From the NCBI RefSeq assembly GCF_000317515.1, contig NC_019738.1, positions 1,401,501-1,465,500 on the forward strand: a DNA stretch of 64,000 nucleotides. Direction: 5' to 3'. The position numbers and the translations under genes are program-made. The DNA comes from Allocoleopsis franciscana PCC 7113. Its GTDB lineage: Bacteria > Cyanobacteriota > Cyanobacteriia > Cyanobacteriales > Coleofasciculaceae. Below, piece by piece: positions 5,431 to 45,936 of the stretch; position 1 is the stretch's first letter, and each line of letters begins with the position of its first letter. The notes under the pieces were generated by a model that worked only from the letters and a program-made list of their open reading frames with translations, made no database searches and was not told where the DNA came from.

Positions 5431-6042
5431 ATGAGGGACATTACTCAAGAAGAAATGCGAGAACGAATGGGGAATATAGACCTAATTCGTGATATAATAT
5501 TTGGCCCAAAACTTCAAGAATATGACCATCGCATTGATAAATTAGAATCTAACTTATCTTTGCTAGAGAAGGAAACGCACGATCGCATTGATCAAGTCAA
5601 AACGGACTGTTTGACAGAACTGCGTTCATCCGTGGATGCTTTAGAGCAAAAAATCAAGTCTCTCAGCCTCACCTTCCAGAAGGATAACGCAGATACTCGA
5701 CAACTCATCGATCGCACTTACCAAAATTTTTCAGGGAGTCTGGAATCGATTGATAAAACGCTAGTAAGCCAGACAACATCGATTCGCAAAGAACTCTCAG
5801 AAACGAGAGAAAAGCTGCAAGATGATACCCGAAATCTCAAGTCTCAAATTTTTGATGAGCTGGAAAAGCGCTTCTCGTTGCTTGCCAACGCTAAGGTTTC
5901 CAGAAATGATATGGCAGACATTCTATTTGAGCTGGGCTTAAGACTAAAAGGAACTGACTTGGCTAAAGAGCTTAAAGAAGCGAGTAACAACAATGAGTCC
6001 AACGATGTTTTTTTTATAGAAGCCAGCAAAATTTCAGAGTGA
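5431..6042 (+). CDS. Coiled-coil protein, first gene of the GTPase/OmpA module
   Basis: A 203-residue soluble protein without a signal peptide or membrane segment. Residues 20-165 show a heptad-rich pattern (KLESNLSLLEKETHDRIDQV, ALEQKIKSL, ETREKLQDDTRNL) typical of a long parallel coiled coil. A short C-terminal helical region contains SRNDMADILFELGLRLKG. No catalytic motif was found. It stands 139 bases upstream of the large OmpA-domain gene on the same strand, and the pair probably forms a transcription unit. A role as cytoplasmic adaptor between the small GTPase and the membrane protein is an inference from position only. ATG 5431 follows an AGAGAG stretch that serves as a modest ribosome-binding site. 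Confidence 0.7.
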   Translation: MRDITQEEMRERMGNIDLIRDIIFGPKLQEYDHRIDKLESNLSLLEKETHDRIDQVKTDCLTELRSSVDALEQKIKSLSLTFQKDNADTRQLIDRTYQNFSGSLESIDKTLVSQTTSIRKELSETREKLQDDTRNLKSQIFDELEKRFSLLANAKVSRNDMADILFELGLRLKGTDLAKELKEASNNNESNDVFFIEASKISE

Positions 6043-6181
6043 ACTCAACGACCAAGTAGCCCTAAGCGATAGTGTTGCTTGAGCAAATTTCTGGAGTTTA
6101 GAAAATTTTAGGCTCCAGGAGGATTTTCATCGGGTAACATCTACCCGCCTAAGTGAAGATTTAGGGGAAGTAAATTAGACT

Positions 6182-8803
6182 ATGGCTTCATCAAAAGAAA
6201 ATCCCTCAGCTAGCTCCCCGCTAAAAGGCTTGGTGGATTTATTGGCTGATTTACAGATTCTGAACACACCGCAAAAACCTCAAGAGGAATCTTCCCCCTC
6301 TCAGACAGATGCACCCAGTCCGGGTGAAGCTCTGGGTTTGGCGTCGGTGGAGGAATACCCAGATGCACCGCCAAAGGCTGACGCTCCTCATGTCGCTAAC
6401 AGGGTGCGATCGCAAGATATACTTGAAGCTGAGACAAACACTCTAATTCCGTCTCACATTCATGAACAAGAATCTCCAGAAACGTCTCATTTCGCCGCTC
6501 ACCCTTCAGCGATAGAAGACTCCCTTAATCGGGTTGAAGGAGAACCCAAGGAACTATCTCAGCCTCATCCACCCAAACAGCAACAAGAAGAACCTAAAAA
6601 GCCATCCCTTCTCTCGCAAGCGGTTGAATTCTTGCAACATCGGCGAACTTCGTCTCATTCTTCAGAACAGCAACAAGAAGAACTTCAAAAGCCATCCCTT
6701 CTCTCTCAACCTGGGAAATCTTTCCCCAATGAACTACCTCATTTTCATCTGCCAGAGCAGCAAAAAACACCAATTACAAACCCATCCGTTTCCTCTCAAG
6801 TAGATTCAAGCCAGCCCAAAAACTTAGAGACACCTCCCGAACAAATCTTTAATCAGCTGATAGAATCTCACTGGGAAAAAGCACGACGAAATGAGTTTAT
6901 CAATCAATCCCTTGGCTCGACGCCTCATCATGATGTAGACAATTCAATTACCCTATTTGAACGTTGGCAACGTTTGCTCCTGACTCAGGAAGTCATGGAT
7001 TCGCGGAAGGCGCTCGCCGAGTTTAAACAAAAAGTAGAGACTCTTGAGCATCAAATTTATGAACCCACAGAATTAATTAATTTACTTCTACCTTTAATCG
7101 CTGAAATTCTGACTTTAAAAGTCGCTGATTCAAGGGAAGACATTGCCCAAGCCATTGCTCCAGTGGTTGATGAAATGATTCAGCGTCGGGCTAAACAGGA
7201 TATCGTAGCCATTAGTACCGCTTTAGCCCCTGTCATACCTGAAGCGGTTGCCAAACAAGTCCTCAACTCACCTGGGGCTTTAGCTAAAGCACTAGGACCA
7301 GAAATGGGGACAGCTATCAAAGAACAGATTACCTTAGAGCGGGATTCCATGGTAGATGCCCTCTATCCCGTCATTGGCAGTACCATTTCTAAATACATGG
7401 CGGAAGCCATTAAAGCCATTAATGAAAAAGTCGAAAATGCCTTCAGTTTAGAAGGACTTTCTCGCAAAGTTCGCGCCAAAGTACAGGGGATTTCTGAGGC
7501 GGAACTCATCTTTAAAGAGTCGATGCCATTTACTATCCAAGCGATGTTCTTAATTCATAAAAGCTCTGGATTGGTGATTGCAGAATTTCAACCCTCAGAT
7601 AGCCAGCGCCTAGAGTCGGAGATGGTGGCGGGTATGCTGACAGCAATTCGCAGTTTTGTCAATGATGTAATTGCTCAGACGGGAAGTGTTTCAGAGATCG
7701 ATCAAATTGACTATGGCGATTCAAGAATTATCTTGGAAGTGGCAGGATACTGTTACTTAGCGGCGGTAACTAAAGGAGAACATCCCCGATCATTTATTCA
7801 AAAAATGCGTAGTACGTTGAGTACTATCGTGCAAAAACAAGGTAAATCCATCGAATTATTTGATGGCGACCCAGATAATGTTCCCGAAGAAGTACATCAG
7901 CTTCTCGACAACTTAACAAAACTTTCCGATACAAATTCAGCTACTAAAAACCCCAAAGCTCCTGTTGCTTTGTTACTGATTGGTTTAACAGTATTTCTCG
8001 CCATTTCTCTACCCATAGGAATCTATCAATATCTAAGCTCAACGGACCGTCGTCGTGAGAGAGAAATTAACCTCGCTTTAGCCTCTGATCCAGAGTTAGC
8101 CGTTTATCGGGTTGGGGTAGATGCCAATCTAGGAACGATCAAGCTGAGTGGCAAGTTGCCTAATCAATATCTCCGTTCCAGAGCTGAAAAAATTGCCAAG
8201 GAAATTGAACCCAAACTGAGTATACAGAATACGATCATCCCTGTGGAAGTGCCCCCCAATCCGGTGTTGGCAGCAGCAGAGGTGAAGCGAGTGGTTAATA
8301 TTCTAAATCAGATTCAGGGTTCGGTAATTGCAGCAGATTATAGTGAGGGAACTGTAACTGTCAAAGGAGCAGTACTTCAGCAAGAGGATGCCAAGAAAAT
8401 TACACAAGCCTTTTTACAAATTCCCGGAGTGAAGTCAGTCAGCAACACCGTACAACTGCAACCGTTCGCGATTGCCTCCCGAATTTACTTTGACCAGGGT
8501 TCTTCCGAGATAAAATCAGAGGAACGTTCAAAAATTGCTCAGATCAGGGCATTTCTTGATCAGCACCCAAATAAGTACCTCAAACTCTTGGGTCATACTG
8601 ACCCTAAGGGTTCGGCTACTGAAAATCAGCAATTGGCACTGGAACGGGCAACCAAAGTCAAAAATGTGCTTATTGCTCAAGGAATCGCTTCCAAGCGATT
8701 GCTAGCTGAAGGGACAATAGACCCTCCTATTGGTGTAAGTGCCGAGCAACTCCCCTTATTAAGTCGATGTGTAGAATTTGAGATCATTTCACCTCAAAGT
8801 TAA
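6182..8803 (+). CDS. OmpA-family membrane protein with longin/roadblock-like and BON domains
   Basis: A large 873-residue protein with a distinctive order of parts. Residues 1-230 are disordered, with Pro/Gln/Ser-rich repeats (QQQEEPKKPSLLSQ and QQQEELQKPSLLSQ). Residues 240-430 are amphipathic helices with recurring AxAPVVxEx units. Residues 436-573 form an alpha/beta domain (QAMFLIHKSSGLVIAEF, MVAGMLTAIRSFVNDVI, YGDSRIILEVAGYCYLAAV, then IELFDGD) that looks like a longin or roadblock-type sensor. One transmembrane helix lies at about 594-618. Two BON-like repeats span 630-760, and an OmpA peptidoglycan-binding domain fills 765-873 (IYFDQGSSEI, LLGHTDPKGS, LALERA). Topology would place the N-terminal three quarters in the cytoplasm and BON/OmpA in the periplasm. 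The longin-like reading is inferred from pattern only. Such domains commonly regulate small GTPases, and one is encoded next door. Confidence 0.85.
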   Translation: MASSKENPSASSPLKGLVDLLADLQILNTPQKPQEESSPSQTDAPSPGEALGLASVEEYPDAPPKADAPHVANRVRSQDILEAETNTLIPSHIHEQESPETSHFAAHPSAIEDSLNRVEGEPKELSQPHPPKQQQEEPKKPSLLSQAVEFLQHRRTSSHSSEQQQEELQKPSLLSQPGKSFPNELPHFHLPEQQKTPITNPSVSSQVDSSQPKNLETPPEQIFNQLIESHWEKARRNEFINQSLGSTPHHDVDNSITLFERWQRLLLTQEVMDSRKALAEFKQKVETLEHQIYEPTELINLLLPLIAEILTLKVADSREDIAQAIAPVVDEMIQRRAKQDIVAISTALAPVIPEAVAKQVLNSPGALAKALGPEMGTAIKEQITLERDSMVDALYPVIGSTISKYMAEAIKAINEKVENAFSLEGLSRKVRAKVQGISEAELIFKESMPFTIQAMFLIHKSSGLVIAEFQPSDSQRLESEMVAGMLTAIRSFVNDVIAQTGSVSEIDQIDYGDSRIILEVAGYCYLAAVTKGEHPRSFIQKMRSTLSTIVQKQGKSIELFDGDPDNVPEEVHQLLDNLTKLSDTNSATKNPKAPVALLLIGLTVFLAISLPIGIYQYLSSTDRRREREINLALASDPELAVYRVGVDANLGTIKLSGKLPNQYLRSRAEKIAKEIEPKLSIQNTIIPVEVPPNPVLAAAEVKRVVNILNQIQGSVIAADYSEGTVTVKGAVLQQEDAKKITQAFLQIPGVKSVSNTVQLQPFAIASRIYFDQGSSEIKSEERSKIAQIRAFLDQHPNKYLKLLGHTDPKGSATENQQLALERATKVKNVLIAQGIASKRLLAEGTIDPPIGVSAEQLPLLSRCVEFEIISPQS

Positions 8804-8821
8804 AGCATTTTTAATAGGTGA

Positions 8822-8979
8822 GGAATCAGTTTACTTGAACCAGAACAACTAGCAGAACAGATTCAGCTTCAAAATCTGGAGCAAGTCGTCTCAGGAATTT
8901 ATCCAACTTCAGCCAAGACGGGTTTATCCGTTGACGACATTTTTCTCCAAATTGCTTACAAAATTTTAGAGTCCTGCGA
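8822..8979 (+). pseudogene. Remnant of a small GTPase C-terminus
   Basis: There is no start codon. In the frame beginning at 8822 the translation reads SLLEPEQLAEQ, then LEQVVSGIYPTSAKTG, then LSVDDIFLQIAYKILES. This aligns with the tail of the intact GTPase encoded at 9384-9893 (DLVDEEKLAKL, VVEIYQTSAKTG, VYVDEMFQKLAEKSIES). It includes the SAK guanine-specificity (G5) motif. G1 to G4 are missing because the upstream bases belong to the OmpA gene, which stops at 8803. The frame stays open to 9223 but loses resemblance after about 8979. The simplest reading is that a tandem duplicate of the GTPase was deleted, leaving its last 50 codons. Confidence 0.72.
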
Positions 8980-9383
8980 CAATGGATTTTCCCCCTTTCA
9001 AACCTCCCTTGGCCTAGAAGACTTCTCCAACGGTAGAGGAGGGGGGGAGGGAAACCAGAGTCTTCATGATAGCGATGCGGAGCATACTCCCAAGAAGAAC
9101 CCGCAGTGTCGTTCACACAGGACAGGGGAACCGAATGATGATGGTTTGTTCCTCCTGGGATGTTGTCTTACTACTCCTGGGATATGGTTGCACCTCGCTT
9201 GGACATTGGCAAATTCGGCTTAAACCCTCCAAGAGCATACTGGATGAGCGCTATCATACCCAATGCGACTGGTAGATCCCTTTGTTAAGCGCCTAAACAA
9301 TCTCTCCCCCTCCTTGCAGAAGAGTTATCGGGAGGTTACAAGAGAGCTGTAGACTGAAAATTTAACAATTAGTAACTATTCTT

Positions 9384-9893
9384 ATGGCAACTATCTCCAA
9401 GAAAATTTGCATGGTGGGTGACTTCGGAGTTGGCAAGACAAGCCTGATTCGCCGATTTGTCGATCGCCAGTTCAGCGATCAGTATCTTTCCACGGTGGGG
9501 GTCAAGATCTCTCGGAAACTTGTAGAATCCGTGAATTTACAGTTGTTAATCTGGGACTTAGAAGGTCACACTAAGTTCAAGGGTATTACCCCCAGTTACC
9601 TACAAGGAGCTAGTGGAGCTGTTGTTGTTGCCGATGTCAGCCGCATTGAAACTGTGGAACGGCTTTTAGAGCATATTAAACTCTTTTCATCCATTAATCC
9701 CAAAGGAACAATTGTAGTTGCTTTAAATAAATCAGATTTAGTTGATGAAGAAAAACTCGCCAAACTCACTCAATTAGTTCCCGTGCATGATTGCGAACGT
9801 GTGGTAGAAATCTACCAAACTTCAGCCAAGACAGGTGTCTACGTGGATGAAATGTTTCAAAAATTAGCTGAAAAAAGTATAGAATCCCTATGA
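9384..9893 (+). CDS. Rab/Ras-like small GTPase
   Basis: A 169-residue P-loop GTPase of the Ras superfamily. Motifs are in order: G1 GDFGVGKTS at residues 12-20, a switch I threonine in STVGV, G3 as WDLEG near residue 58, G4 NKSD near 115, and G5 TSAKTG near 148. The residue after the G3 glycine, normally the catalytic Gln of Ras/Rab, is His (DLEGH), so intrinsic hydrolysis may be low and dependent on a partner. There is no C-terminal cysteine for lipidation. The stop codon overlaps the start of the histidine kinase gene (ATGA at 9890), which indicates translational coupling. Upstream lies the degraded copy of a paralogue. Signalling at the membrane together with the OmpA-family protein is inferred. 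Confidence 0.92.
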   Translation: MATISKKICMVGDFGVGKTSLIRRFVDRQFSDQYLSTVGVKISRKLVESVNLQLLIWDLEGHTKFKGITPSYLQGASGAVVVADVSRIETVERLLEHIKLFSSINPKGTIVVALNKSDLVDEEKLAKLTQLVPVHDCERVVEIYQTSAKTGVYVDEMFQKLAEKSIESL

Positions 9894-11425
9894 ACGTTCT
9901 TTTAAATAAAATTGTAGCGCCCCGTTACGAATACCTAATTCTGACACGGAACTTTGTTATTTTAGAGGCATCCTATGGTGCACAATGTTTTGCTGATTGT
10001 CCAGAAGCGTTGAAGTTGGGAAAGGATATTCGTTTCGCTTTTCCGGAACTGCTCGGAATTGAAGAAATTATCCTTGATATCATAGCAGGACGACAGACGA
10101 ATTTTGAATTCAAAGGAATTGCTCGAAAAAATGACCAAAAATCCCCTTTTTACTTAGATTTATATATCAGTGAGTATTCTAATCCAGAGAGCTTGGATAG
10201 TCAGTTAATTGTCTTACTTGAAGATGCTACAGAAAGAATGATTTTACAGCAGACTTTGGCACAAAGAACCAATGAAGCCAATCTGTTAGTCAGTTCTTTG
10301 ACCGCTGCAAAAAAATATATTGATAAAATTATTACATCCATGGCTGATGCTTTATTAGTAACAAATGCATCAGGAATTATTAAAACGGTCAATCCATTTG
10401 CTCAAGATTTATTTGGCTATAGCCAGGATGAGTTAATTGATCAGCCAATCTCAAAAATAATTCACCAGGAAAACTTTTTAGATCAAACCAGGATTTTTTC
10501 TTCTTCAAATTTGGGAAAATTTATCAAAGATGTAGAAGTTTTTTGTCAAACTAAAACAGGCGAACAAATTTGTATTTCCTTTTCTTGTTCAGCGATTCAG
10601 ACGGAAATTGAGGGATTACAAAACTTCGTTTATATCGGTCGAGATATTAGCGATCGCAAACGAGTAGAAGCTCAAATGATGAAAGCACTGGAACGGGAAA
10701 GAGAACTCCGAGAACTCAAGTCCGACTTTGTTTCCATGGCAAGTCATGAGTTCCGGACTCCCCTAACGGCAATCTTTTCTTCTACTGAATTACTACAACA
10801 TTACGGTAATATCTGGCCTGACGAGAAGAAGCTCAAACACTATCATCGGATTGAATCTGCCGTCAGACGGATGACAGGACTCTTAGATGATGTTTTACTT
10901 TATAGCAAAGCCGAAGCTGGGAAACTACAGTTTAATCCTGCCTCCTTAGTACTAAAAAATCTGTGTAGCGATCTAGTAGAAGAATTGCAACTCGGCATTG
11001 GAAAAAACCATAAGATTACCTGGATCTACTCAGGGCCATGCAACAATGCTTACATGGATGAAAAGCTCCTGCTACACATTTTGACTAATTTACTCTCAAA
11101 TGCAATTAAATATTCGCCTTCAGGTACGACCATCTTTTTTAGCTGTTCCTGTGATCAGGATAATAAAGAAATAACTTTTGAAATTAAAGACCAAGGAATT
11201 GGTATTCCTCCAGAAGACCAAACCCAACTGTTTGAGTCATTCCATCGGGCAAAAAATGTAGGGGATATTCCTGGGACAGGACTCGGTTTAGCCATTGTCC
11301 AAAAATCAGTAGAATTACACGCCGGTAAGATTACAGTAAATAGTGAAGTGGGAGTTGGCACAACTTTTCGCATCACTTTGCCGTTGAATAGCAAGATTGA
11401 ACATGTTCCCGTGGAATCTCTCTAG
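9890..11425 (+). CDS. PAS-domain sensor histidine kinase
   Basis: A 511-residue kinase with no membrane segment. Residues 15-110 form a first PAS-like sensor and residues 140-260 a clear PAS domain (ADALLVTNASGIIKTVNPFAQ, ending in YIGRDISDRKR). A HisKA dimerisation domain has the phosphoacceptor in MASHEFRTPL. An HATPase domain carries N box HILTNLLSNAIKYS, G1 DQGIGIPPEDQ and G2 GTGLGLAIVQKS. It starts inside the last codons of the small GTPase gene, so the two are probably produced in fixed ratio. No response regulator gene is adjacent, so the output is unknown. A GTPase-controlled kinase, or a kinase that reports on GTPase state, are both possible. Confidence 0.93.
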   Translation: MNVLLNKIVAPRYEYLILTRNFVILEASYGAQCFADCPEALKLGKDIRFAFPELLGIEEIILDIIAGRQTNFEFKGIARKNDQKSPFYLDLYISEYSNPESLDSQLIVLLEDATERMILQQTLAQRTNEANLLVSSLTAAKKYIDKIITSMADALLVTNASGIIKTVNPFAQDLFGYSQDELIDQPISKIIHQENFLDQTRIFSSSNLGKFIKDVEVFCQTKTGEQICISFSCSAIQTEIEGLQNFVYIGRDISDRKRVEAQMMKALERERELRELKSDFVSMASHEFRTPLTAIFSSTELLQHYGNIWPDEKKLKHYHRIESAVRRMTGLLDDVLLYSKAEAGKLQFNPASLVLKNLCSDLVEELQLGIGKNHKITWIYSGPCNNAYMDEKLLLHILTNLLSNAIKYSPSGTTIFFSCSCDQDNKEITFEIKDQGIGIPPEDQTQLFESFHRAKNVGDIPGTGLGLAIVQKSVELHAGKITVNSEVGVGTTFRITLPLNSKIEHVPVESL

Positions 11426-42195: not shown

Positions 42196-42273
42196 TCCAG
42201 CACCCCATCTCCCCCGCACCCCAGCACCCCAGCCCCCCCGCACCCCCGCACCCCAGCACCCCATCTCCCTTTC
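42196..42273 (+). repeat. C-rich low-complexity repeat upstream of the CheA gene
   Basis: Tandem and interleaved copies of CACCCC(G/A)GCACCC-type words, for example GCACCCCAGCACCCCAGC. The run lies in the 154-base gap between the receptor and CheA start codons. It is not likely to be translated because the true CheA start is downstream at 42286. Confidence 0.8.
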
Positions 42274-45825: not shown

Positions 45826-45873
45826 TTGGTAACACCTAGAGAGATGGGAGAATGGGTAATTTTCAGTAGCGTC

Positions 45874-45936
45874 CCATTACCTATTACCCATTACCCATTA
45901 CCCATTACCCATTACCCATTACCCATTACCTATTAC
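45874..45936 (+). repeat. TTACCCA heptamer tandem repeat
   Basis: About eight copies of the 7-base unit TTACCCA (two variants read TTACCTA) end five bases before the ATG of the next gene. An inverted relative AATGGGTAAT lies at 45851-45860, so hairpins can form. It resembles the short tandemly repeated heptamers (STRR) of filamentous cyanobacteria. Confidence 0.88.

Follow-up and report, generated by a model that had tools for sequence, protein, structure and literature searches.

A predicted longin domain beside a Rab-like GTPase in a probable cyanobacterial Rup operon

We found that the cytoplasmic domain of an OmpA-type membrane protein encoded by Allocoleopsis franciscana PCC 7113 is predicted to have a longin fold, an assignment that rests on a structural model and not on a solved structure. 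Its gene stands in a conserved four-gene neighborhood with the genes for a coiled-coil protein, a Rab-like small GTPase, and a histidine kinase. Our preferred reading, to which we give no more than an even chance, is that the four genes form a Group 1 Rup GTPase signaling operon in which a longin platform acts on the GTPase and the GTPase acts on a PAS-fold output domain; the binding, the direction, and the enzymatic role are inferred.

The module is not new in itself, because Wuichet and Søgaard-Andersen described the same neighborhood in 2014 under the name Group 1 "Rup" system (PMC4316618). That description comprises a GTPase, a coiled-coil protein, a membrane protein that combines a domain of unknown function with OmpA, and an output enzyme, typically a diguanylate cyclase/phosphodiesterase or a kinase, whose N terminus holds an invariant Gln; the GAP was unknown, and the Rup GTPase family had no experimentally characterized member (PMC4316618). 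We found no further Rup reports in the open-license literature. Relative to the 2014 description, we assign a longin fold to the unknown domain of the membrane protein and a PAS fold to the output N terminus, for which no fold had been given in 2014, and we add class III cyclase, SpoIIE, and winged-helix fusions to the outputs. Also new is the contrast with the published view of longins as a eukaryotic or Asgard development. The open-license literature yielded no description of a longin in a Rup system or of a bacterial longin next to a GTPase, which is only weak evidence of novelty.

Gene content and conservation of the locus

5431-6042, forward strand: coiled-coil protein gene, 203 aa (open reading frame)
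6182-8803, forward strand: longin/OmpA membrane protein gene, 873 aa (open reading frame and Pfam)
9384-9893, forward strand: Ras/Rab-like (Rup) GTPase gene, 169 aa (open reading frame, Pfam, motif alignment, and sequence matches in the structure database)
9890-11425, forward strand: PAS histidine kinase gene, 511 aa (open reading frame; four-base overlap with the GTPase gene)

The window (the whole stretch analyzed, 64,000 nucleotides of a 7.97 Mb genome) contains all four of the co-directional genes that the first-pass annotation had proposed, including the four-base overlap of the kinase and GTPase genes (9890 versus 9893), and Pfam agrees with the OmpA (6e-15), BON (two stretches), and PAS histidine kinase (HisKA, HATPase_c, and PAS) domains that it had named. 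An Rfam search of the window for RNA families gave no match.

We counted neighborhoods at 80 named cyanobacterial loci. In 75 of them, the longin-OmpA gene has the coiled-coil gene immediately upstream; a GTPase gene lies no more than 600 bp downstream in 70 (far above chance), and an output gene directly follows the GTPase gene in 61. At seven loci no GTPase is seen, and three of these (L072, L090, and L130) stop at a contig edge. Even in a divergent cyanobacterial branch (21–24% identity), the coiled coil, the longin-OmpA protein, and the GTPase are all kept. Among 244 cyanobacterial genomes, the longin domain occurs in 31, the GTPase in 31, and both in 30 (hypergeometric 4e-36, not corrected for kinship). 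Two loci (L062 and L063) carry a second copy of the longin-OmpA gene that encodes a longer variant of about 1,200 aa, and no GTPase, coiled-coil, or output gene was found beside this copy.

The evidence for spread beyond the cyanobacteria consists of plasmid records and the 2014 paper. Independent longin and GTPase searches of 72,556 plasmids returned the identical four records, three of them rhizobial, and the same operon is present in Rhizobium and Mesorhizobium. The Mesorhizobium gene order is hypothetical protein, OmpA protein, "Rab family GTPase," and nucleotide cyclase; the cyanobacterial profiles match the counterparts of the coiled coil (1.8e-18), the longin domain (2e-41), and the GTPase (9e-51), and the cyclase matches the output-domain profile weakly (4e-5). 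A chance neighborhood of unrelated genes, an explanation that we give practically no weight and for which we found no supporting evidence, is rejected in view of this conservation of gene order across cyanobacteria and alphaproteobacteria.

The predicted longin domain

The membrane protein was divided as follows:

6854-7525, forward strand: helical cytoplasmic region preceding the longin domain, residues 225-448 (all-helical in the AlphaFold model, at moderate to low confidence)
7526-7939, forward strand: predicted longin domain, residues 449-586 (AlphaFold model m380b40635d97; Foldseek and VIA-align matches)
7634-7645, forward strand: MLTA segment, residues 485-488, within the first longin helix (carried unchanged by all 113 of 113 sequences)
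7961-8023, forward strand: single transmembrane helix, about residues 594-614 (hydropathy peak of 2.5 at residue 596)
8045-8209, forward strand: BON domain, residues 622-676 (Pfam BON, 4.6e-13)
8486-8713, forward strand: OmpA domain, residues 769-844 (Pfam, 5.6e-15)

The structure was predicted from residues 225-600 aligned with 32 relatives. In the model, the longin domain has the order beta-beta-alpha-beta-beta-beta-alpha-alpha and forms a five-stranded sheet whose second strand is followed by a central helix, with two more helices at the C terminus, which agrees with the published longin topology (PMC10933270). Local confidence is mostly 85–95, falls to 64–77 around one loop, and is lower in the preceding helical region. 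The model matched complete longins in two structural comparisons. In Foldseek, all 24 matches with E ≤1e-3 were longins or adaptor/coatomer subunits of longin fold, the best being adaptor sigma subunits, zeta-COP, the Mon1-Ccz1-Ypt7 complex, and Sec22b. In VIA-align, Sec22b scored a Z of 14.3 with 126 of 127 residues covered, followed by VAMP7 (14.1), TRAPP subunits (12–13), Fuzzy (12.4), and an Asgard longin (11.9). As a control, the same pipeline assigned the N terminus of the kinase to PAS folds and not to longins.

No Pfam match above the cut-off was seen for this domain in the window protein or its relatives. Below the cut-off, Fuz_longin_1 reached 2.6e-4 in one relative and 0.01 in another set, and it did not match the window protein; a sequence-profile search against solved structures found no longin relative.

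The first-pass annotation had suggested a longin- or roadblock-like domain at residues 436-573. The structural matches strongly support the longin half of that suggestion and not the roadblock half, and they move the domain slightly downstream, to about residues 449-586. We consider it very improbable that the domain is an MglB-type roadblock and the system a variant of MglA-MglB. The two folds share a core, the model has a short helix before the first strand, and Foldseek ranks LAMTOR roadblocks from place 37 on, but the two helices that follow the sheet are longin-like, and Robl_LC7 was reported neither for the window protein nor among the listed families of its relatives. The 50 VIA-align matches listed are longins and adaptor-type longin folds, although this does not exclude a roadblock lower down. 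A profile comparison with the genome's own roadblocks gave 0.6%, a result of little weight because it rests on just five close sequences.

The helix that carries MLTA corresponds to the one that forms the GTPase or dimer face in longin and roadblock platforms already known. Because consecutive helix residues face all sides, the invariance of MLTA suggests, by inference, that this segment is an interface as well as part of the core. Many longins, among them SNAREs and adaptor subunits, have no role in GTPase regulation. It is therefore conceivable, if in our view quite unlikely, that the domain is a structural dimerization module that makes no contact with the GTPase, in which case control of the GTPase would fall to the coiled-coil protein or to the OmpA protein's helical region. 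Certain longins, such as those of SNAREs, do act outside GTPase regulation (PMC10933270), and the 203-aa coiled-coil protein carries a highly conserved N-terminal segment of its own (residues 10-34); the invariant MLTA helix speaks against such a module, as does the domain's almost perfect co-occurrence with the GTPase. The unexplained helical region that precedes the longin domain tempers any role that we propose for the domain in GTPase control.

Outside the longin domain, the only clear hydrophobic segment of the protein is that around residues 594-614, in line with the one membrane helix proposed earlier. Asp807 and Arg822 occupy the peptidoglycan-binding positions known from E. coli OmpA; Arg is found at its position in 113 of 113 sequences and Asp in 87 of 113.

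The GTPase, the output domain, and a proposed mechanism

The GTPase matches Pfam Ras at 2e-25, and of the 60 solved structures that match it best in sequence, nearly all bear Rab or Rab-like names (Rab22A, 2e-21). All five G motifs that had been read in this protein were confirmed, and they are conserved in 105 sequences (G1 GDFGVGKT, G2 Thr37, G3 WDxEG, G4 NKxD, and G5 TSAK). The motif alignment also upheld the replacement of Gln61 by His; across the 105 sequences this position is His in 57, Ser in 28, Gln in 10, and Glu in 5. Without Gln61, this GTPase may depend for hydrolysis on a residue supplied in trans.

The kinase has two parts:

9890-10309, forward strand: N-terminal PAS-fold domain, residues 1-140 (model pLDDT of 90; PDB matches of PAS/LOV/PYP type; conservation)
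10310-11425, forward strand: second PAS, HisKA, and HATPase_c (Pfam)

The first of these is a constant N-terminal element found before histidine kinase, hybrid histidine kinase, GGDEF, class III cyclase, and SpoIIE domains. Within it, Gln121 is present in 128 of 130 sequences and Gln125 in 126 of 130.

The window therefore shares with Group 1 Rup systems a single-domain Ras-superfamily GTPase with G1 to G5 present and the catalytic Gln of G3 missing, an adjoining coiled-coil gene, and a membrane protein that combines a conserved domain with a single inner-membrane helix and OmpA. The output N terminus, for which one invariant Gln was described, here offers two near-invariant candidates. The GTPase gene is likewise uncoupled from a roadblock gene, the nearest Robl_LC7 gene of the genome being 121 kb away.

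We propose that the OmpA protein would be tethered to peptidoglycan on the outside, with its longin domain inside; what it senses in the envelope is inferred. The longin domain, probably dimeric (also an inference), would together with the coiled-coil protein provide a platform at the inner membrane. There it would bring in the Rab-like GTPase and alter the nucleotide state of the GTPase; a role as GEF or recruiter is the most likely. Once GTP-bound, the GTPase would dock on the N-terminal PAS fold of the output protein (the histidine kinase in this operon) and switch the output; Gln121 or Gln125 of that domain would be the candidate for hydrolysis in trans, as outlined in 2014. Control of the GTPase by the longin domain and GTPase input to the kinase are inferred from the operon structure and from knowledge of the families, without binding, exchange, or hydrolysis data. 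With that reservation, the longin assignment names a candidate for the regulator that the 2014 description of the Rup GTPase family left missing. The parts are small and soluble, so the idea is directly testable in vitro.

The arrow between longin domain and GTPase may also point the other way. The longin domain may be a GAP or the downstream target of the GTPase, in which case the docked GTP-bound GTPase would signal outward and alter the grip of OmpA on the cell wall, and the kinase would be the regulator. A GAP is to be expected for a GTPase without Gln61, the roadblock protein MglB acts as a GAP on MglA according to the literature, and the membrane protein and the GTPase are equally constant whereas the kinase is swapped for other enzymes. 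We nonetheless regard this alternative as unlikely, though not negligible, because outputs that have different catalytic domains and a common N-terminal domain resemble readouts and not regulators.

Three known systems besides Rup come close to this arrangement. Eukaryotic longin regulators of Rabs (TRAPP, Mon1-Ccz1, and Fuzzy-Inturned) likewise pair a longin with a Rab-like GTPase, but the predicted longin of the window lies in a peptidoglycan-anchored bacterial membrane protein, outside vesicle traffic, and has no exchange data. MglA-MglB of Myxococcus and Thermus likewise pairs a small GTPase and a regulator that has the roadblock/longin superfold; in the window, however, the partner domain is predicted to be a longin and not a roadblock, and the GTPase best matches Rabs. 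The actinobacterial conservon (CvnA-D) is also an operon with a small GTPase, a histidine kinase, and two further genes, but the window operon has no roadblock gene (no Robl_LC7 in any of the four genes), its kinase has no membrane segment in the Pfam architecture, and an OmpA membrane protein is present instead.

One published account derives the longin domains of eukaryotes from roadblock ancestors (PMC3521125), whereas another has longins diverge in forerunners of the Asgard archaea (PMC10933270). If cyanobacteria and rhizobia have a longin fold next to a Rab-like GTPase, this would place the partnership in bacteria or reveal transfer between domains of life. Because the longin fold regulates Rab GTPases in our own cells, its predicted presence next to a bacterial Rab-like GTPase means that the partnership may predate eukaryotes. 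We suggest tentatively, and with somewhat less assurance than we have in the operon model itself, that bacteria have a true longin that regulates an adjacent Rab-like GTPase, that the Rab-longin pairing runs parallel to MglA-roadblock in prokaryotes and was not born in Asgard archaea or eukaryotes, and that the PAS-fold domain is an effector plug through which the GTPase can act interchangeably on kinases, cyclases, phosphatases, and a transcription factor.

Variation in the GTPase and output genes

A gap of 580 bp separates the OmpA gene from the intact GTPase gene and contains a feature that the first-pass annotation had overlooked:

8834-8974, forward strand: remnant of the 3' end of a second GTPase gene (47 codons, TSAKTG among them; start and G1 to G4 missing)

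The remnant is 64% identical over 42 residues to a GTPase of the relative L070, and we infer from its presence that the GTPase was duplicated or replaced at this locus. Rearrangements at the same gap are seen in the close relatives L069 and L070.

The genome also encodes a second intact GTPase (C1:334094; L002 and L067; 67% identical). Its neighbor is a short protein that consists of the output PAS-fold domain and one PAS alone. As the genome has a single longin gene, these two are separate from the longin.

At several loci (L035, L036, and L047), one GTPase is followed by two output genes in series, the first for a kinase or GGDEF protein and the second for a class III cyclase; a single switch may therefore control more than one output. 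In another protein of the window's own genome (L157; C1:6188615), the output PAS-fold domain follows an apparent OmpR-type winged-helix region, called by eye from the sequence, and this protein is possibly a GTPase-controlled transcription factor. Elsewhere in the window, tandem repeats are present at 690-809 (unit of 42 bp), at 42197-42263 (unit of 8 bp), and at 45873-45936 (CCCATTA, nine copies).
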